21,243 nt of DNA from a virus, in IMG/VR virus record IMGVR_UViG_3300022413_000047, positions 1 to 21,243 of that record; one strand, given 5' to 3'. The translations under genes and the position numbers were made by a program. Each line of letters starts with the position of its first letter. The stretch's first letter is position 1. Positions 2,979 to 21,163 of the stretch are shown here, one piece after another. Under the pieces are notes generated by a model. That model was not told the DNA's origin and searched no databases. It saw only the letters and a list, made by a program, of their open reading frames with translations.

Positions 2979-3467
2979 CTAACCGTACTCCTTAAAAGCT
3001 CCAAATCTTGCAATAAGATAGCTATCTGCTATTCCAAGTTGTTGTTCTTTAGGTAAAAAATCTATTTGCCATCCTGGCTCCATGTTTTTAAATAGAGTTA
3101 ATGCTGCTGATTTATCTTTCCCGCTTATCCCGTGATGCTTTTTCCATTCGTTAGGCAGCGGATAGTGTATTGGCCACTTGTTGGCGAAAACTATCCCCTC
3201 TATTAGTCCAAAGGAACGACCAAAGCTAAACATGCTGGATACGCCCTGGCGAGGCATTGCCTTAACTCGCTCTAGATAGACAATTGGCGATACTCCTGCA
3301 TAGGCCTTTAGCTGCTCACATGCGGCTCTTCCGTCTATTTCTTTTCCCTTTCCGTGAGATTTCTCTTGCAATCTAAAGTTTTCGGCGACAATTATTTCCT
3401 TGTGCTCCGTCGAGTAAACGGTAATAGCGCCGCTCATGCCTGGGTCAATTCCTATAATTGAGCGCAT
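2979..3467 (-). CDS. RuvC-like Holliday junction resolvase
   Basis: The 162-residue protein opens with the RNase H-fold strand MRSIIGIDPGMSGAI, which places catalytic Asp8. Glu66 follows in VYLERV, then the Q-G-V-S-S-M-F-S-F-G-R-S-F-G stretch typical of phage RuvC-like nucleases, and an acidic site near Asp148 (GIADSYLIARFG). Such enzymes resolve branched DNA during recombination and before packaging. The ATG at 3467 overlaps the helicase stop as TAATG; an upstream in-frame start would add 19 residues running into the helicase gene and is less likely. It follows the SSB-like and helicase genes, completing a compact replication and recombination module. Length suits the family. Confidence 0.87.
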   Translation of the reverse strand: MRSIIGIDPGMSGAITVYSTEHKEIIVAENFRLQEKSHGKGKEIDGRAACEQLKAYAGVSPIVYLERVKAMPRQGVSSMFSFGRSFGLIEGIVFANKWPIHYPLPNEWKKHHGISGKDKSAALTLFKNMEPGWQIDFLPKEQQLGIADSYLIARFGAFKEYG

Positions 3468-4498
3468 TATTCTTTGTACCAACCTCCTCCAGCATCTGGC
3501 GTTTCTTCGCTTATCCATTTCCATCCATCGTTCACCTTTACAGCGCTAAATCCTGCAGCTCTTCTTGCTTTTTGAACGGTATTCCAAGAGTATCCGCCTT
3601 CTTGCGCTGACTTTCGTATTGTTCCAGGGATAAGGACTCCTTTTTGGATTTTGCTTTCTTCTGCGAGCCACTTCATTAGCTCTCTAACTTCTTCATCTAG
3701 ACGTTGAGATGAAGATACAATCATGTCTAAATCTTCTTCTCTAAGCTCTCTTGGGTCCCATTCTATTGGATGGACTCCATTGTCTGGATTTACTTTATAT
3801 GCAAATCCGAATCTTGCTGGTCCTAGATTATTTTTGATGCAAAGCATTAGCCTTCTGTCTAGGTCCGTCGGGTCCAAAGCCACTAAGTACGATGTTCTCG
3901 CGGCCCCGCTGAATTGAATTGAGCCAGATACTCTATAAAGACCTGCCTGATCGCTTGTTTTATTAAGGTGCGCAATCATCAAGAACGCAACATTCTTCTC
4001 CATAATCATTTCAGCCACAGGTCTAAGCGCCCTCCTAACGCTTGTGTCTCTGTAGTTATCCGTTTGCTCATTAAAATATGCGCTTAAAGGGTCTAAGATG
4101 ATTAAAGATGGATTAATTTCATCTATTACCTTCTCTAGTATGTCCATGTCATCGAAAGTCATTTGATGAACATATTCGCTACCATCTGAACACCAACCTT
4201 GCAGCTCAAAAACTCTATCGAGGTCTGCTCCAAGCTTTTCTAGCCTTGGTCTTATCGTGTCGCCAAAATCGTCTTCGCAATTAATTAAAACGACATTTCC
4301 TGGTTTGTTCGCTTGTCCGTCTGGCCATTCGGTTCCCTTGCTAACACGAGCTGCTATATCTAAAGACACCCAAGATTTTCCTATTCCTGGGTCACCTGCT
4401 ATTAAGCTTATTCGTCCTTTAGGAATTTTTTCGTGCCATAGCCATTCTACGGTTCGTGGCTCTATTTCCTGGAGCTTGTTGATTACTGGATTTCGCAT
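3467..4498 (-). CDS. RepA-like replicative helicase / RecA-fold ATPase
   Basis: The 343-residue protein has a RecA-type ATPase core. Walker A is GDPGIGKS (residues 35-42), Walker B is LIILDP (132-137), and a sensor-like strand AFLMIAHLNK lies at about 171-180. This order fits the AAA_25/RepA group, whose members include hexameric plasmid and phage helicases. The C-terminal 80 residues, after about residue 260, look like a separate winged-helix domain (GTIRKSAQEGGYSWNTVQKA), useful for DNA or origin binding. The start overlaps the SSB-like stop as TAATG. As no polymerase or primase is present, this is the best candidate for the protein that loads or moves the host replication machinery on phage DNA. 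Confidence 0.85.
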   Translation of the reverse strand: MRNPVINKLQEIEPRTVEWLWHEKIPKGRISLIAGDPGIGKSWVSLDIAARVSKGTEWPDGQANKPGNVVLINCEDDFGDTIRPRLEKLGADLDRVFELQGWCSDGSEYVHQMTFDDMDILEKVIDEINPSLIILDPLSAYFNEQTDNYRDTSVRRALRPVAEMIMEKNVAFLMIAHLNKTSDQAGLYRVSGSIQFSGAARTSYLVALDPTDLDRRLMLCIKNNLGPARFGFAYKVNPDNGVHPIEWDPRELREEDLDMIVSSSQRLDEEVRELMKWLAEESKIQKGVLIPGTIRKSAQEGGYSWNTVQKARRAAGFSAVKVNDGWKWISEETPDAGGGWYKE

Positions 4499-4935
4499 TA
4501 GAACGGGATTTTATCGTCTGGGTCTTCACCGTTACTTTGCGACTCGCTAGAGTCCTCGGCCAGCTTCACCGGCCGCTTCTTTTTGAATCCTGTTTTTGCT
4601 TTTGGCCTTCCTCCTGTTTCTCCAAAATCTAGCTTTTCTTTCCAAATCGGCTTCCCGAAATCAATCACTTGCATAGACTCTATATCTAAGGCAGTTCCAC
4701 ACAATGGGCACACGTTATCATCAGGTATTCTATTCACTCCGTATAAAGCAATAACGGTTTGCTCCCTCTCGTCGTATCCTGAATAAACCAGATTCCTAAC
4801 GATTGCCAAATAGCTGGATTCTCTTGTCCAGACCCGGACGCATGAACCTTTATCTATTTCATTGTCGAACCCTGCTACCCTTATTCCCCATTCTCCAGAG
4901 CGAAGCTTCATCGGCTTTATGGATTTATCGGTCAT
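4498..4935 (-). CDS. SSB-like protein with zinc knuckle and acidic tail
   Basis: The 145-residue protein ends in GEDPDDKIPF, nearly identical to the conserved acidic C-terminal tip of bacterial single-stranded DNA binding proteins (DDDIPF). That tip recruits replication and repair partners. Residues 8-70 form a beta-rich domain (GEWGIRV, SCVRVWTR, YLAIVRNLVY, QTVIALYGV) that could be an OB-like barrel, though I cannot prove the fold. One CPLC pair (76-79) would give half a zinc site. Residues 109-125 are very basic (GRPKAKTGFKKKRPVK). The start overlaps the upstream stop as ATGA. Position directly before the helicase supports a single-strand binding or helicase-loading role. Confidence 0.7.
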   Translation of the reverse strand: MTDKSIKPMKLRSGEWGIRVAGFDNEIDKGSCVRVWTRESSYLAIVRNLVYSGYDEREQTVIALYGVNRIPDDNVCPLCGTALDIESMQVIDFGKPIWKEKLDFGETGGRPKAKTGFKKKRPVKLAEDSSESQSNGEDPDDKIPF

Positions 4936-12135: not shown

Positions 12136-12676
12136 TTGAGCGATGCCTGTATAAATCGAATGTTGGGACCTTTGCGCCTTCTTCTATCGATACTAAGGGC
12201 CAGCCAGCCTTAACCAATCTCTTTAGTTGTCTTTCCGGGTCTTCTAGCATATCCGCGTAATTAACAACCGTAAAAGAAGCAATCTCTTTATTAAAGAATT
12301 TATTGAATTTTATAATAGGGTCAGTATCTAACCGACTAAGCATTTCGAATCCCTTGAAGCCCCACTTGGACAAAGATGCTTTTCTTTCTTCACGAGCCCT
12401 AGACATGCAAACAATATGCGTAGGGCCGAGCAGCTTTGTCGTTAATAAAGCTCCAGCTATTCTTTTAACTACCTTTCCAGGCTCCATCTTTCCTTTTTCA
12501 AAAAAACCAAGAGGATTTGGAGCGTAGCTCTTATCTACAAGCTTAACCGCATTGATTAGCTGATAATCCGCCTCTGCAACATAATTAACAGGCATTCCTG
12601 AATCACGAAGCGTTCGCATCATCATAGAAGTTCCTGAGCGATGTGGCCCCGTAACAATATAATAAAAATCAGTCAT
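12113..12676 (-). CDS. sulfotransferase-like protein
   Basis: The 187-residue protein begins with a strand and P-loop of the PAPS-dependent sulfotransferase type: GPHRSGTSMMMRTL at residues 10-23, where R-S-G-T-S would hold the 5'-phosphosulfate. A second strand with CMSRAREERKASL (90-102) resembles the 3'-phosphate binding region. VVNYADMLEDPERQLKRL (137-154) matches the usual 'Y-E-D-L-x-x-x-P' segment. At 187 residues it is shorter than typical sulfotransferases (about 250-300), yet the fold looks complete. A kinase is less likely given the RSGTS loop. ATGA overlap joins it to the ParB-like gene. It could sulfate a virion or host surface glycan; the substrate is inferred, not shown. Confidence 0.78.
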   Translation of the reverse strand: MTDFYYIVTGPHRSGTSMMMRTLRDSGMPVNYVAEADYQLINAVKLVDKSYAPNPLGFFEKGKMEPGKVVKRIAGALLTTKLLGPTHIVCMSRAREERKASLSKWGFKGFEMLSRLDTDPIIKFNKFFNKEIASFTVVNYADMLEDPERQLKRLVKAGWPLVSIEEGAKVPTFDLYRHRSNAYYAQL

Positions 12677-13266
12677 GCCGCTTGCGCATCCTTTTTAGGA
12701 CGACCTCTCCTTCTTTTTGGTTTATCTGATTTCTTTATCTCGTTAAGCTCCTCTTCTGTCATAAGCTGCCATTCTCTGGAGTCGCAAATCATGTAGTGTC
12801 GCCCCATTGCCCAGCCAAATTTAAGAGGAACAATTCCAACAGGCGGTATCTGAAACTCATCTATAACTGAGCCATAATCAACCTTTTCCCATTCTTTAAA
12901 AACTTCATCATAATCAACCATTAAGCATTTCAAAGGATGCTTGCCAAAAACGGCCCATAAAACACGCGTCCCGCCATAAGACGACCAGATACGCCCATTC
13001 CTCGCCCAAAGAATCACAGGGTTTATCTGGCCATCTTTATCTAAAGATTCCATGATTTTTTGACTTGATTCTTGAATAACCTTTGGGCCTCTTAGCCTAA
13101 CGCGCCAATTTTGGAATCCCATCCCAGAAGGCAATCCATCAGTGCCTCCAGTTGCTGGATTGAAATTAATAAATCCAGGCGCTATCCGCTCATGATGCAA
13201 AGGTTCTAAGACCCCGCGCCTTAAATCAGGGACGGGGTCTAATTCACAATCTAGCCAATCAATCAT
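12673..13266 (-). CDS. ParB-like domain protein with C-terminal AT-hook
   Basis: The 197-residue protein contains a ParB/sulfiredoxin-like segment at about residues 66-115. QKIMESLDKDGQINPVILW is followed by a G-R-I-W strand and GGTRVLWAVF, which parallels the ParB pattern 'I-x-x-x-G-x-x-x-P-V ... G-x-x-R-x-x-A'. The usual GEHR/GHR is GGTR here. The C-terminus has a clear AT-hook, KRRRGRPKK (184-192), which binds the minor groove of AT-rich DNA. The N-terminal 60 residues are unassigned. It lies nine bases downstream of the capsid gene and leads the sulfotransferase-methyltransferase cassette. ParB-fold proteins include CTPases, nucleases and kinases; which activity applies here cannot be told. 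Confidence 0.68.
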   Translation of the reverse strand: MIDWLDCELDPVPDLRRGVLEPLHHERIAPGFINFNPATGGTDGLPSGMGFQNWRVRLRGPKVIQESSQKIMESLDKDGQINPVILWARNGRIWSSYGGTRVLWAVFGKHPLKCLMVDYDEVFKEWEKVDYGSVIDEFQIPPVGIVPLKFGWAMGRHYMICDSREWQLMTEEELNEIKKSDKPKRRRGRPKKDAQAA

Positions 13267-15169: not shown

Positions 15170-16942
15170 TTATTGCGTCTGATTCGCTTGATTCTGAGAT
15201 TCGTCAAACTCCTTAAGGGCTAATTGCCGCTCTCTCTTCGCTTCGGCCTCATCAGCCTCGATACCAAGACGCAGCAATTCGCGTTGATGTTTTTGATTTA
15301 TGTCAATTCTCTTCGTTTCTGCCTCCTCTTGTTTAATCCTTAACTCTGCAATTGTTTCACGACTTCGCTGCTCTCTCGCAGCTTGCTGTTCTTGCAATTG
15401 CGCCATGATTAGCTCCTGATCAGGAGTCATCTGATCGGGAGACATAGACTGTTCTATAAGAGAATCAACAACTTGGAGAACATTTGTTTTCTCTCTTATT
15501 GCTGAGCCTTCTATAATTAATCTAAGAATAGATAGCTGAGCTGCTCCGCTTGGAAGCTGAGTCATAAGCTGCGCAAGCTGTTGATTTTCCAGCTCGCGTA
15601 TCATTATACCTATTCCGCTATTTATCTTTGGCCGGCTCTGGAGGCTCGGATATTGGCCAGGGTCTATTGCGTTAAGCCTTTTAGCGGCTTTCTCTATCAA
15701 AGGAACAACATAGTCTCTTTCGATATTCATCAAAGTTCTAGCTGAGCGCTTAACCGATGCGCCCAAAATCGCAGACAATGGACCGGTCCCTGTTCTTGAT
15801 ATGTCGCCAATAGGAGAAGCTGAGGTAATTTGACCAGTAGCCACCTCAATCATTCGTTGCAATTCAATGCTTTGCTGATAGGTGCCCGGATCAGGTCCGC
15901 CAAAACTGATCGCATTTAATGCTGTACGAGCATCTCCCCTAACTGGGATATTCCTGCCTGGCCTTGCGGCGAAACGCTCTGATCTGGGAACTTGCCTAGT
16001 ATTGAGGGCCATCATGGGAACAGTAGAATAGGCTAAAGCATCTATTCTTGCCCTCATCTCAGCATCTAAAGCTTTTTGCGGCCAATATGCCATCTCAGCA
16101 ACGCCTCGGCCCCAAATCCTACGAGGAACCGTATGCCATTGAGACGAAACGAATGGCCTATCCCTACCAAACGGATTGGCTTCGCACCTAAGAACTACTT
16201 CTTCGTTTGCTATCGTGCAAACAGCCTCAACTAAATTGTCATCTCCTATAGCTTCTTCTCTTAATTGGTCCTTCGACTGCCTACTCTCTACTTCTTCAAC
16301 TGGAAGAAGGCCCCACCACTCATGTATTTCAACGTAATCAGATTGCCTGGGTTGAGACTCATTTTCGTTACGAATCACATAGTTAGGAGAATTTTCTAGA
16401 TTTACAGACCTGTATTTTCCCTCTTCCATTCCCATGTAAACTACATGTTTAGGAACGAAGAAATGATGGTCAATCCCTAGCGACTCTTCCATAGTATTCG
16501 CCGCAGGGTCTACTATTAGCTCATTTGGTGGGATTGCTTGAGTTCTTAACTTAGGCGTATTCCCGTCAAAACTAACCGTTATCTTTGATACGATGTTTCC
16601 GTAAAGAGCTCCAAGGAGTATCGCTTCCTCTATGTTTGGCCTATCCATCCAAAGGTCAGAAAGCAATAAATCATCCAGCAATGGATTCCCGGTATCTAGC
16701 CATTGCTCCTTAGAAAATAAAGCCTCAATCACTTCAGAAACTGCAGAATCAATGGCATGAGCAGTGCTCGGCATTATTATTTGGCTTTGCTCGCTTTCTC
16801 TATTCTTCTCTTCTGTCGTCCATTGCCCTCGCCAAACTCTATAATATTCTCGCCAGCGTTGACCATGCTCTTGGTCTCTAAATCGCCTCCATTCAGTAAC
16901 CCTAGAGACTAAATCTTCAACTAATACATCACTTGAAGCCAC
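15170..16942 (-). CDS. portal protein
   Basis: The 590-residue protein fits a podoviral portal. The N-terminal region WREYYRVWRGQWTTEEKN is followed by IIMPSTAHAIDSAVSEVIEALF, with the characteristic 'P-x-x-x-x-x-i-e-x-x-v' clip and wing start. Then come a beta-rich centre (PKLRTQAIPPNELIVDP), a YWPQKALDAEMRARIDALAYS segment, and a long C-terminal helix rich in Glu, Gln and Arg (barrel-like, residues about 500-590). Twelve copies would form the vertex through which DNA enters and leaves. It begins with GTG, overlapping the adhesin stop by one base. It is separated from TerL by two virion surface genes, which is unusual. Confidence 0.87.
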   Translation of the reverse strand: MASSDVLVEDLVSRVTEWRRFRDQEHGQRWREYYRVWRGQWTTEEKNRESEQSQIIMPSTAHAIDSAVSEVIEALFSKEQWLDTGNPLLDDLLLSDLWMDRPNIEEAILLGALYGNIVSKITVSFDGNTPKLRTQAIPPNELIVDPAANTMEESLGIDHHFFVPKHVVYMGMEEGKYRSVNLENSPNYVIRNENESQPRQSDYVEIHEWWGLLPVEEVESRQSKDQLREEAIGDDNLVEAVCTIANEEVVLRCEANPFGRDRPFVSSQWHTVPRRIWGRGVAEMAYWPQKALDAEMRARIDALAYSTVPMMALNTRQVPRSERFAARPGRNIPVRGDARTALNAISFGGPDPGTYQQSIELQRMIEVATGQITSASPIGDISRTGTGPLSAILGASVKRSARTLMNIERDYVVPLIEKAAKRLNAIDPGQYPSLQSRPKINSGIGIMIRELENQQLAQLMTQLPSGAAQLSILRLIIEGSAIREKTNVLQVVDSLIEQSMSPDQMTPDQELIMAQLQEQQAAREQRSRETIAELRIKQEEAETKRIDINQKHQRELLRLGIEADEAEAKRERQLALKEFDESQNQANQTQ

Positions 16943-19416
16943 TAAACCGTAACTCCTAAGACGCCGCTACCAGAAACACATGAGCCCGTATTATTGACGC
17001 TATCATGCAGCAACTTAACCCAAGCATCTGATTTTGCTTCAGTTTTAGAAATCAAAATCATTCCAATAGTCCCGTAAAACTCATCCGCATTACCAGCTCT
17101 TTGACCAAAATGAACACTATCATCAGCATTGCTAGCGCCCATCGTAGTTGATGAAGTATGCGTTTTTACTGTCCCATCAGTTCCATCAGTTGTAATAACG
17201 CCTGTCGCATTAGTATCTCCATCGCTATCAAATCTCATAGCTACAAGAGTATCTGTTACATCTGGCGCTGTATTTGTTGCCGTGACAATGCCGCCTGAAA
17301 ATCCAGTCGCATCAGTCATTGTGAAATTGCCTTCAATCCGATTAGTTCCTGGCTCAAACCTAATATATACCTCAGATTTTCCAGTCTCTCCTGCAGAATA
17401 AAGATTTCCTATTATGCAATGCTCATTCGCATCTCCAAGAGATTCTATCGGGCGAATTGCGGCTACTAATGTAACTTCAGCAGAAGAATTAAAAAAACCA
17501 GCTGAAGTCTCTAATTCAAGATGATGCAAATCCCCTGTATCGGAACTTGTCTTGTTAAGAGAGACTCCATAAATACCTGTCATTTCTCCGCAATCAAGAT
17601 CAAAGATTCGAGAGACATCATTTCCGTTCCCGCTCCTATCCCTAAACGTACTTATAGCTTCGTCGTCTTCTTCACCCAATAAAATCGCAACATCAAAATC
17701 ATCAAACACATCAGTGTCACTAAAGGCATTTGATGTTGAAGAGGTGCCGCCACCTCTAATATAGATTTTGTCACCATTCGAGACAGAGGGAACCTTCACC
17801 CAAGCATAAGCAGCATAACTTCCGGCAACTGGATGAAATCTAGTTGAAGTGTAAAGCCTTGAAACCGCTCCCACGTTTATGTATTCATCCCCAGCATTCC
17901 AAACAATTTCCCCTCCGATACTTCCATCATAAGGATGTTCCCCATAAACGCGCCTGGGAAGGTAATGTTTCATTGAATCAGACTTACTTATCCTTTTATC
18001 AACAATCCAGCTCCCGTCCGTTATTCGACGAACTCTCCACAAACGAGAAAATCTAGAAGTGCTGTTAACTTGAGTGCAGATATAAGCAGCATTTGCCGGG
18101 TCACGCGGACATATGCAAGCAAAACAACTGTAATAATGGTCTATATTCCCATCTGATTGGATGCAACGATGAGCCAACTCATAAGGAATTTGGGATATGC
18201 TCCAGCTTCCACCACTAGTGCTCACGCAATGATAAGCTCTAGATGTAATTGCACCAGGAGAGGAAGTTGTATCCGCTCCGTTTATTGTGTTTCCTTCGCC
18301 TCGAAATCTAATCACCTGAAGAATTACATTATTTCCTCTAACGCAAATATCTCCAGTATTCATTGCGTCATCTGATGTGAACCCAAGCCCATCATCATAT
18401 TTCATAACCAAACTAGAGCTTGAGGCGGCATCAATTATAGCTGGAGTAATTCCGTCTCCACCAGGAGTTAAAGAAGTTCCATCTGTAGCGTGCCAAGTGC
18501 TAAAGCTGCTTGTGTAAAAGTGATAAATAGATTGAGAGCCAGAGGCAGGAGGATTGCCAATACTCGTCATGAAATGAATAGTATTTACCCCATCTCCAGC
18601 AGACTCTAGATAAGTTGTATTTGATGCGGTCTCCCATAAAGCAGTTTCAGTGCCCCAAGTTACAGTCCCAGTTGTTACATTAACATCTGCAGAGCCAGCT
18701 CCATCTCCATACTCGGCAGTCCTATACCGCCAAGACATTTTGGTCCCGCCTTCTTTTAAGCGATAAATTAAAACTATTGTTCCACCGCTGCCTATTCCGC
18801 TCAAATAAAGAAGCTGAGAATAACTAACAACATCAGTTACGCCGCCCGTCGTTAACGTTTGCTGAGTGTTCCAATCTACGTCATCAGCAGATTGCGTTAG
18901 CCCATACCATATATCACGTCCCGTATTGTGCTCAGGACAGCAATAAAGAAGATAGTTATTTGGGAGATTTAGAAGAACAGGGTCATTGTGGTCATCGCCA
19001 CTAGATGCGTCAGCAATAGTAAAGCTGTTAAACGTATACGTATCAGTGCTTGGATCGTATTTAGTTGTCTTCAAGATGGAATTGTTTGATCCGTCTATAT
19101 TTGTTGCTATTCCTGCCGTATAGAAACTACCGTTCATATAGATAGCATTTGGAGTACTATGCCAACTCCCAGTAGAGCCATCTCTTTGGGCAAGTGCTCC
19201 AGAGGATGCCACCCAAACTGGCAATTCCGTTCCATCACCATCTCGGGCTATAACTGCGCCTTCAGGGTTATTCGCGTAATCCTGAAATGTAGAATCACCA
19301 ATAAGCGGCACTCGAACTAAAGCATTAGTAACTGTAGCCGATGGTGTCAAAGTGATTTCTTTTTCCACCGGATAATCGAGAAACCGGCGACGCCTTACTG
19401 GAGCTTTCCAATGCAT
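16942..19416 (-). CDS. large adhesin: DUF2341-like, BNR_4 propeller and LamG-like domains
   Basis: The 824-residue protein is beta-rich with no signal peptide. Residues about 20-70 (VTNALVRVPL through GDGTELPVWV) look like the first half of a DUF2341 domain. Residues about 85-520 look like a BNR_4 sialidase-type propeller, with NAIYMNGSFYTAG, DDHNDPVLLN and repeated Trp/Tyr strands. The second DUF2341 half then seems to resume at about 530-600 (YAAYAWVKVPSV, then FDDFD and DRSGNGNDV). Residues about 615-815 resemble a LamG/concanavalin sandwich. Such domains bind or cut glycans, so it is the best candidate for a receptor-binding tail spike or head fibre. The BNR catalytic residues were not checked. 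It lies between terminase and portal genes, next to a small beta-rich protein. Confidence 0.75.
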   Translation of the reverse strand: MHWKAPVRRRRFLDYPVEKEITLTPSATVTNALVRVPLIGDSTFQDYANNPEGAVIARDGDGTELPVWVASSGALAQRDGSTGSWHSTPNAIYMNGSFYTAGIATNIDGSNNSILKTTKYDPSTDTYTFNSFTIADASSGDDHNDPVLLNLPNNYLLYCCPEHNTGRDIWYGLTQSADDVDWNTQQTLTTGGVTDVVSYSQLLYLSGIGSGGTIVLIYRLKEGGTKMSWRYRTAEYGDGAGSADVNVTTGTVTWGTETALWETASNTTYLESAGDGVNTIHFMTSIGNPPASGSQSIYHFYTSSFSTWHATDGTSLTPGGDGITPAIIDAASSSSLVMKYDDGLGFTSDDAMNTGDICVRGNNVILQVIRFRGEGNTINGADTTSSPGAITSRAYHCVSTSGGSWSISQIPYELAHRCIQSDGNIDHYYSCFACICPRDPANAAYICTQVNSTSRFSRLWRVRRITDGSWIVDKRISKSDSMKHYLPRRVYGEHPYDGSIGGEIVWNAGDEYINVGAVSRLYTSTRFHPVAGSYAAYAWVKVPSVSNGDKIYIRGGGTSSTSNAFSDTDVFDDFDVAILLGEEDDEAISTFRDRSGNGNDVSRIFDLDCGEMTGIYGVSLNKTSSDTGDLHHLELETSAGFFNSSAEVTLVAAIRPIESLGDANEHCIIGNLYSAGETGKSEVYIRFEPGTNRIEGNFTMTDATGFSGGIVTATNTAPDVTDTLVAMRFDSDGDTNATGVITTDGTDGTVKTHTSSTTMGASNADDSVHFGQRAGNADEFYGTIGMILISKTEAKSDAWVKLLHDSVNNTGSCVSGSGVLGVTV

Positions 19417-19726: not shown

Positions 19727-21034
19727 CTAATACCCTACGGCTTTATCAATTGGTTCCCAGTAATGACTATCTAAGTCCTTACCTTCATCTCCATAGTTAA
19801 CACCACAAGCTAATGAAATTGCTCTAACAACATCATCAGAACCCTTATCTGAAGGAAACATCCCAAAATTAGACGCAACGTCTTGAACATAATCGCCAGG
19901 CTCAAAAGTTATTCTGCCGCTTTCTAGCAATGGCTCAATAATCCAAGTTGCCCTGTCTACATATTCAGAATCTGGGTCCTTGCTTTCCTCAAAGTATATT
20001 CCCCTATTAAACCTAGCCTCCCTTTCCTCAATATGGCTACCAATCAAGTTATATTGCTGAGAGCTAATAACAAAAGAATCTGGAGAATATTCCTTATCAA
20101 GGGAAAATATCTTTGTCGCAAGCCACCTAGCAGAGGCGTTTGTCCTTATAACATCTAAAACATGATATCTATCGCCAAAAACTCTAACAATTGCAATCGA
20201 TGACATAGAGACAATAATGTCGCCCCATTCGCTTTGCTTTTGCTCGTCAAAGCTTCTGAGCCTTACGCCAATAACGACTTGAGAGCTAAATCCCTTTTTT
20301 TCCTCTACTTTCATCAAGTCAGGATTAAGAACCACAACCGAATCGTCGCCAAAGTCAGCTTCGTACTCCCTTTTGAATACTGCCTCAGGCATCGTTAGCC
20401 TAGCATCCTCAACCTCAGAATCTAATATAAAAGGAGAATCTTTCGTAAAATATCTAAAAGAGCGCCAACCAGGAGCACCGGCATCTTCAGCTTTGTAGAG
20501 ACCGTAAAAATGATTGCGCCTATCAGGAGTCCCAATAAACAGGGCTTTCGAATCCGGCGCTAAATCAGCTAACGTAGCCCTTAAAACATAAGTCCAAACC
20601 TCGGCTCTCATGCTTGCGTATTCATCACAACACAAATCAGAAAGCCCAACACCTCTAAGTCTATCAGGTCTATCAGCGCCTTTTAGCTGAAGAATCCTCC
20701 CATTGCAGAACTCAAACGTCAAAGAACTTGGCCAAGCTTTTGCAATGTAGTTCTCACCTAGCCGCTCAACCAAACGAAACATAATATCTTTCGCTTGGCT
20801 AAACGTTGGCGCTACATAGTAGACATCAAAATCCTTTAGCTCTTTGCCATTCCTGGCAAGCTCTAAGACTCTAGATATAAGCCAACAAGCTGCAAAGTAT
20901 GTCTTGCCCCAGCGCCTACCAGCGGCAACAACGACAAATCTCGTAGAGCCATCCTGTAATGCATCCCATACGGCTTGCTGACCATCGTGAAGCTCCCAAG
21001 ACGGCTGAATAAGAGATTCCTTAGCCTTTGGCAT
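19727..21034 (-). CDS. terL: terminase large subunit, nuclease motif degenerate
   Basis: The 435-residue protein has the packaging ATPase of large terminases: Walker A GRRWGKT (39-45, the usual deviant form), Walker B LSDLCCDE (131-138) and the coupling motif FIGTP (166-170). The RNase H-like nuclease domain follows at about 250-410. Its first strand reads VVIGVRLRS, where a catalytic Asp is expected ('G-x-D'); the second site reads FVISSQQ, where an acid is expected. Only the last pair, SDDVVRAI (Asp400/401), looks intact. ATG at 21034 is preferred over TTG at 21037. It pumps DNA into the procapsid through the portal. It follows a 41-residue basic gene; no small-subunit gene is recognisable. 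Confidence 0.9.
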   Translation of the reverse strand: MPKAKESLIQPSWELHDGQQAVWDALQDGSTRFVVVAAGRRWGKTYFAACWLISRVLELARNGKELKDFDVYYVAPTFSQAKDIMFRLVERLGENYIAKAWPSSLTFEFCNGRILQLKGADRPDRLRGVGLSDLCCDEYASMRAEVWTYVLRATLADLAPDSKALFIGTPDRRNHFYGLYKAEDAGAPGWRSFRYFTKDSPFILDSEVEDARLTMPEAVFKREYEADFGDDSVVVLNPDLMKVEEKKGFSSQVVIGVRLRSFDEQKQSEWGDIIVSMSSIAIVRVFGDRYHVLDVIRTNASARWLATKIFSLDKEYSPDSFVISSQQYNLIGSHIEEREARFNRGIYFEESKDPDSEYVDRATWIIEPLLESGRITFEPGDYVQDVASNFGMFPSDKGSDDVVRAISLACGVNYGDEGKDLDSHYWEPIDKAVGY

Positions 21035-21037
21035 CAA

Positions 21038-21163
21038 TTATCCCTTACGTGGCTTAGAAACTCCTGGAGCAGGACCCATGCGACTTTTGGGGCGATTAGG
21101 CTTCATTCTGTTGGTTGTCCCGCCTTTAGGGCTTCTTTGATTGCCTGCATGCTGCTTTGCCAT
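21038..21163 (-). CDS. tiny basic protein upstream of the terminase gene
   Basis: The 41-residue product, starting MAKQHAGNQRSPKGG, carries about eleven Lys and Arg, is Pro- and Gly-rich and has almost no acidic residue. GGAG lies about ten bases before its ATG, and its stop is three bases from the terL start, which supports real coupled translation. Basic disordered peptides of this kind bind nucleic acid. It is too short for a usual small terminase with an HTH and oligomerisation domain. It may be a virion or packaging accessory protein. Its role is unknown. Confidence 0.6.
   Translation of the reverse strand: MAKQHAGNQRSPKGGTTNRMKPNRPKSRMGPAPGVSKPRKG

Follow-up and report, generated by a model that had tools for sequence, protein, structure and literature searches.

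Does the large terminase (TerL) encoded at this locus still cut the DNA that it packages? The window, by which we mean the whole stretch of DNA that was analysed, is an entire IMG/VR record of 21243 bases, classed as linear. An earlier note made from its letters had proposed that the terminase keeps its ATPase motifs and lacks two of three nuclease acids, and that either these acids have moved or the enzyme does no cutting of its own. We think that the latter is probably correct, that is, that this is a genuine TerL whose nuclease domain no longer works as an enzyme and persists in a structural or regulatory role, while the ATPase drives DNA in without cutting it. The evidence comes from comparison with two related contigs, which form a clade of three with the window, and with canonical TerLs from uncultured phages. 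The features concerned are listed here, with residues counted from the ATG at 21034 (numbers based on the TTG are one higher).

19727..21034, minus strand: gene for the large terminase (TerL), whose product has 435 aa if started at the ATG (21034) and 436 aa if started at a TTG (21037; ORF 19727-21037)
20330..20992, minus strand: domain of the motor ATPase, approximately residues 15-235; the GRRWGKT, DE and GTP motifs are intact
19727..20329, minus strand: RNase H-like nuclease domain with a replaced active site, matched to the G20c nuclease by its model
20261..20263, minus strand: Arg258 codon, at catalytic D1 (the equivalent of G20c D294) in an alignment of 113 TerLs
20207..20209, minus strand: Ser276 codon, at the Asp of LDxTAI (D in 110/110 canonical rows; S, S and D in the three)
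20063..20065, minus strand: Ser324 codon, at the second acid (E in 110/113; S, N and G in the three)
19976..19978, minus strand: Asp353 codon, at the His of the THGxKKK loop (H in 110/110 canonical rows; D, D and E in the three)
19832..19837, minus strand: Asp400-Asp401 codons, retained (DD in all 112 TerLs with data in the 113-row alignment)
19823..19825, minus strand: Arg404 codon, at the last Asp of HDDxxD (D in 108/108 canonical rows that have data; R in each clade member)

The protein matches PF03237 (Terminase_6N, E 2.6e-9) and PHROG 2 (E 4e-30), in both cases over its ATPase part, and a search of the whole record found no second copy of TerL. Walker A, the DE of Walker B and the GTP motif of a packaging ATPase are all present, as the earlier note had said. 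The nuclease domain taken alone has no PHROG match and, among phages, a single weak terminase match (E 0.06). The whole protein was modelled with AlphaFold2 from a 52-row alignment (mean pLDDT 87, with residues 265-272 below 50); in this model the arrangement of the two domains is unsure because the pTM is 0.59. Its ATPase part resembles the P74-26 TerL ATPase (4znl; Z 26.6, rmsd 1.9 over 208 residues), and residues 231-415 in the TTG numbering resemble the G20c TerL nuclease (5m1f/5m1k; Z 16.3-16.4, rmsd 2.8-2.9 over 160-162 residues). The C-terminal RNase H-like fold is thus predicted to be intact, with every strand and helix kept.

Within this fold all three related genomes have other residues in place of the D1 and second-site acids, as read from the alignments. 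The D1 column holds Asp in 110 of 113 TerLs and Arg in the three clade members, and the window reads GVRLRS at residues 256-261 in place of G-x-D, as the earlier note had observed. Its VISSQQ (322-327) likewise turned out to lie where canonical TerLs carry the second acid, and in an alignment with T4 the Glu of these relatives falls on the Glu of T4 VYIE. The second-acid position would be equivalent to G20c D347, the LDxTAI Asp to D300, and Asp400/401, whose retention had also been correctly noted, to D428/D429. The G20c terminase cannot do without D294, D347 or D429, and its D300 is not essential (PMC5389553); the window TerL has R258, S324 and D401 at the three indispensable places. The changes extend beyond what the earlier note recorded, with His353 becoming Asp or Glu, Lys358 becoming Tyr, Tyr and Val in the three, the last Asp of HDDxxD becoming Arg404, and no recognisable DUF5681-like small terminase in these genomes. 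Position 355, too, is Asp or Glu in 3/3 clade members, compared with Asn or Gly in 110/110 canonical rows.

The canonical TerLs were the best 80 of the 590 relatives that were confirmed in one scan, together with TerLs from capsid loci; among the 77 capsid loci listed, 35 had no match to TerL, and of the 42 that had one, 10 were discarded for shortness. The 113-row alignment omits one locus, L018, because the ORF extracted from it was 71 aa long; its frame 2 reads canonical. No sequence with the same losses was gained when L100 and 60 new loci were added, which raised the alignment to 174 rows: D1 is Asp in 170 of these and Arg in three, with one row (L250) lacking data, and of the 169 rows outside the clade that reach the second-acid site 168 have Glu there and one has Asp. 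In L250 (16-1228) the TerL is split across two frames, probably by a frameshift in the contig, and its second-acid and DD regions are canonical. A distant TerL, L254, is without D400 and D404, yet has D1 and the second acid.

The losses fall chiefly on the nuclease half. Among 37 positions that are invariant in the ATPase domain the three TerLs keep 31, 31 and 32 (31 in the window), compared with 9, 9 and 14 of the 32 invariant nuclease positions (9 in the window). Retention of nuclease invariants in 108 leave-one-out controls was 81-100%, and in the most distant control noted, L100, it was 94%, with 85% for the ATPase invariants. These controls are not distance-matched, since their best identity to the references is 49-60% in the rows shown, while the three reach 34-37% to canonical TerLs. 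The losses go beyond chance, because the same replacements occur in two independent contigs and because nuclease invariants have been lost selectively.

The three TerLs belong to a single clade, with support of 100/99, intact in 100% of 200 bootstrap trees, in an ATPase-only tree of 32 rows whose bootstrap had not fully settled. The closest relative of the window is L187 (IMGVR_UViG_3300022413_000046, 21941 b), with a TerL 77-78% identical to the window's and a contig that is collinear with it over almost its full length. The other, L016 (IMGVR_UViG_3300032183_000002, 24320 b), has a full-length TerL 51-52% identical to the window's, has its structural genes in common with both, and is the less changed member of the clade, since the Asp of LDxTAI and the His preceding DD are both retained in it. 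All three contigs carry genes for portal, capsid and tail proteins. These genomes were the only close relatives in pattern-based IMG/VR scans with TerL, portal and helicase alignments, and one pattern-based scan of prokaryote genomes found no relative. The nuclease-altered group is therefore apparently a small and rare set of bacteriophages, a rarity that holds within these scans and among the matches listed, since the scans (of IMG/VR for TerL and capsid) depend on short peptide patterns. The Walker A motif of L016 (339-359) reads GRRWGKN instead of GKT or GKS, at a position that is Ser or Thr in 107/107 canonical rows with data; with Asn at the P-loop Thr position, the L016 motor may itself be altered.

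Comparison of the window with L187 indicates, at the level of codons, that the nuclease domain is under purifying selection and is not simply decaying, because synonymous differences are saturated (pS 0.94) while dN is 0.24. Selection may be somewhat relaxed, since the nuclease domains of the window and L016 are 40% identical, which is below the 5th percentile (41%; minimum 35%) of canonical pairs with like ATPase identity; the two other clade pairs lie above that percentile, in the ordinary canonical range.

A nuclease domain without its acids has a known counterpart in phi29. The C-terminal domain of gp16 has been called a vestigial nuclease, with D1 replaced by Tyr, and the same source describes the nuclease domain as fully functional in all other phages (PMC7672431). 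The window TerL resembles gp16 of the Salasmaviridae, as portrayed there, in having an RNase H-like C-terminal domain that has lost nuclease acids beside an ATPase that has been kept, and on sequence grounds it could be described as vestigial in the same manner. Unlike gp16, it is predicted to have every strand and helix of the nuclease fold. It is also not a member of the phi29 type, because it belongs to the PHROG 2 lineage of TerLs and because its genomes gave no sign of two phi29 hallmarks: protein-primed polymerase B (PF03175) was found in none of the three records, which may be fragments, and neither pRNA nor any other Rfam family matched the window or the other two contigs at gathering score. 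Nor do we claim a phi29-style role for the domain in gripping DNA; its net charge (-9, -9 and -8 in the three) is more negative than in most of 111 relatives (mean -2.2, s.d. 2.8, range -9 to 5). If the TerL is inactive, it would be an exception, in a second lineage, to the rule that the domain is functional outside phi29. We found no such case outside phi29-like phages in the literature at the level of titles and opening lines of abstracts, a search that mostly covered papers outside subscription. An inactive TerL would also help to tell the other roles of the nuclease domain apart from cutting, and would raise the matter of how else a phage defines its genome ends.

The other comparisons concern further large terminases. 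Canonical PHROG 2-type TerLs (from uncultured phages, among L017-L095 and L110-L186) share its ATPase lineage at 32-34% mean identity, their phages have major capsid proteins that are about 50% identical, and portal relatives occur in 62 of the 77 capsid loci listed; they differ in keeping the D, D, E, H and HDDxxD residues, and mostly have a DUF5681-like gene upstream. SSU5-like and T5-like phages (SSU5, nickie, ANB28 and My1) are alike over the ATPase domain (tblastn, 33-42% identity), but the matches stop at residue 229-239 and an Asp stands in their D1 column (alignment A1). The TerLs of G20c and P74-26 share the predicted fold of both domains (Z 16.4 for the G20c nuclease), and differ in that the G20c nuclease is active.

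Of 83 canonical loci with at least 900 b of sequence upstream of TerL, 78 have the DUF5681-like gene there, at a distance of no more than 3 kb; one member matches PF18932, and from its position the product is a putative small terminase subunit. A six-frame profile search gave no match to it in the three whole contigs. The profile consisted of seven canonical sequences, themselves within the searched set, and might therefore overlook a divergent small terminase; the three may also have an unrelated or unrecognised one, for example a short ORF adjoining TerL.

21038..21163, minus strand: 41-aa basic ORF adjoining TerL upstream, with counterparts in L187 and L016

The L187 counterpart is 56% identical over 41 aa, and that of L016 was identified by reading. 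The window and L187 copies have no Pfam or PHROG match, and the best score of this ORF against the DUF5681-like profile was 1.6 bits.

If the terminase does not cut, a mechanism can be outlined in which its ATPase would translocate DNA into the head, and the nuclease domain would be retained for structure, contact with the portal or regulation, without cleavage. Arg258 and Arg404 may pair with the retained Asp400/401 and so fill the former metal site. The ends of the genome must then come from elsewhere, since TerL on this account does not make them, and the motor would load DNA whose ends are produced by something else. Against this reading, neither polymerase B, a protelomerase (none was found in the three genomes) nor pRNA was detected that would account for unit-length DNA.

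A different account of the same replacements is that the active site has moved, with Asp353 and Asp355 joining Asp400 and Asp401 to bind metal in a terminase that still cuts. The acids gained at 353 and 355 are present in 3/3 clade members, where canonical rows invariably have His and then Asn or Gly, D400/D401 are conserved, and the 353/355 loop follows strand 5 (349-352 in the TTG numbering). In the RNase H fold the loop after strand 5 opens toward the active-site side and is expected to flank the old site. Against this, the D1 acid that G20c needs for catalysis is an Arg, with a second Arg at 404, the Lys at 358 and the glycines of the site are gone, and the DUF5681-like small terminase is likewise not found; we therefore regard relocation as unlikely. 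Nor do the two acids that the earlier note had suggested as possible rescuers serve as candidates. Asp272 was suggested as a relocated D1 by an alignment of distant phages, and was rejected because it is Gln in L187 and a non-acid in L016, and because denser alignments place Arg258 opposite D1. Asp263 is an acid in all three, but its position is acidic in most canonical TerLs, being Glu in 80/110 of those that have D1. Of the two explanations first offered, then, it is the absence of cutting that has gained, from losses throughout the clade, the further changes at invariant positions including two to Arg and the missing DUF5681-like gene. Decay of the gene in defective or satellite elements that are packaged by the terminase of another phage would suit small contigs of 21-24 kb in which no DNA polymerase A was found and which have few close relatives in the scans; with portal, capsid and tail genes present, and a nuclease domain under purifying if perhaps somewhat relaxed selection, we consider it very improbable. 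Error in sequencing, assembly or alignment is scarcely credible: the sequences are from metagenomic contigs only, but the replacements are common to three separately named contigs, in an open frame, and sit within conserved flanks such as GVRLxSF.

If the nuclease is indeed switched off, one candidate for the maker of ends, by association only, is a resolvase encoded with the replication genes; a host nuclease or another phage protein would be alternatives.

2979..3524, minus strand: RuvC/MOC1-like Holliday junction resolvase (PHROG 1770, E 6.7e-23)
3467..4498, minus strand: AAA_25 helicase (PF13481, E 1.9e-35), part of a replication module common to the three genomes

The earlier note had speculated that a RuvC-like nuclease might help the terminase. 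Such a protein is certainly encoded, its four acids (D27, E85, D137 and D167), as expected for a RuvC fold, are invariant in the three genomes, and a profile of the three sequences matches solved MOC1 chains; a helping role is a matter of correlation. As a special case of the non-cutting terminase, this resolvase could have taken over the terminase nuclease in trans, making ends for the motor. It occurs in 3/3 nuclease-less genomes and in 0/19 related records (these being partial, with a canonical TerL seen in 18 and one, L150, related by its capsid only), and is the only recognised nuclease common to all three, which have no HNH match with one Pfam model. Phages use such resolvases on branched DNA ahead of packaging, however, a task that requires no part in forming ends. 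The association may instead come from the replication module, since this is also common to the three: strong matches to the AAA_25 helicase, which we take to be RepA-like, occur only in these genomes among 22 records, with one weak match (E 4e-4) in the record of L117. Some of the related records have other resolvases (T7 endonuclease I in 3/19; polymerase A occurs in 5/19), and the end of the L187 contig, treated as single-stranded DNA, folds no better than shuffles (z -1.0). We regard a resolvase acting in trans as possible but doubtful.

The contig ends bear on the same point. TerL starts within about 320 b of the upstream contig end in 3/3 clade members, compared with 0/15 canonical contigs of at least 15 kb (among the best 80 of 590). 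A fixed terminus immediately upstream of terL would agree with the fact that all three contigs end at that place, but is not proved by it; the contigs may be incomplete. In L187, bases 1-99 are an exact inverted copy of 21293-21391 near the other end, which may be an assembly overlap, a chimera or a real terminal repeat, and no such repeat was found in the window or L016 contig at the same sensitivity. Taken at its fullest, the proposal would be that tailed phages of a lineage with no relation to phi29 have dispensed with the part of the terminase that cuts, losing nuclease catalysis as well as the small subunit usual elsewhere, and rely on a translocation-only motor. A separate RuvC-fold resolvase, encoded with a polymerase-less replication module, would make the ends, always at one site immediately upstream of terL; this whole scenario is speculative, and we think it rather improbable as it stands.

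Some minor features of these genomes may be recorded. Three iteron-like 16-nt repeats, 75-100% alike, lie near the end of the L187 contig (L191 9944-10025), where no long ORF was seen, and could mark an origin. The window encodes at 4498-4935 (minus strand) a 145-aa protein with a CxxC pair and no Pfam match; its DDKIPF tail, which has a similar counterpart in the genome of L016, presumably resembles the acidic tip of single-strand binding proteins. The product of 12673-13266 (minus strand) is ParB-like by eye, without a Pfam or PHROG match; related proteins occur in both relatives (two in the genome of L016) and in none of the 77 capsid loci listed. Between TerL and portal, at 16942-19416 (minus strand), the window encodes a protein of 824 aa that matches BNR_4 (E 1.6e-11). 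Neither relative has it at that place, portal coming next after TerL in both, and a weak homologue lies elsewhere in the genome of L016. That genome also contains ORFs encoding glycine/tyrosine/aspartate-rich repeats (L098 8362-8896).
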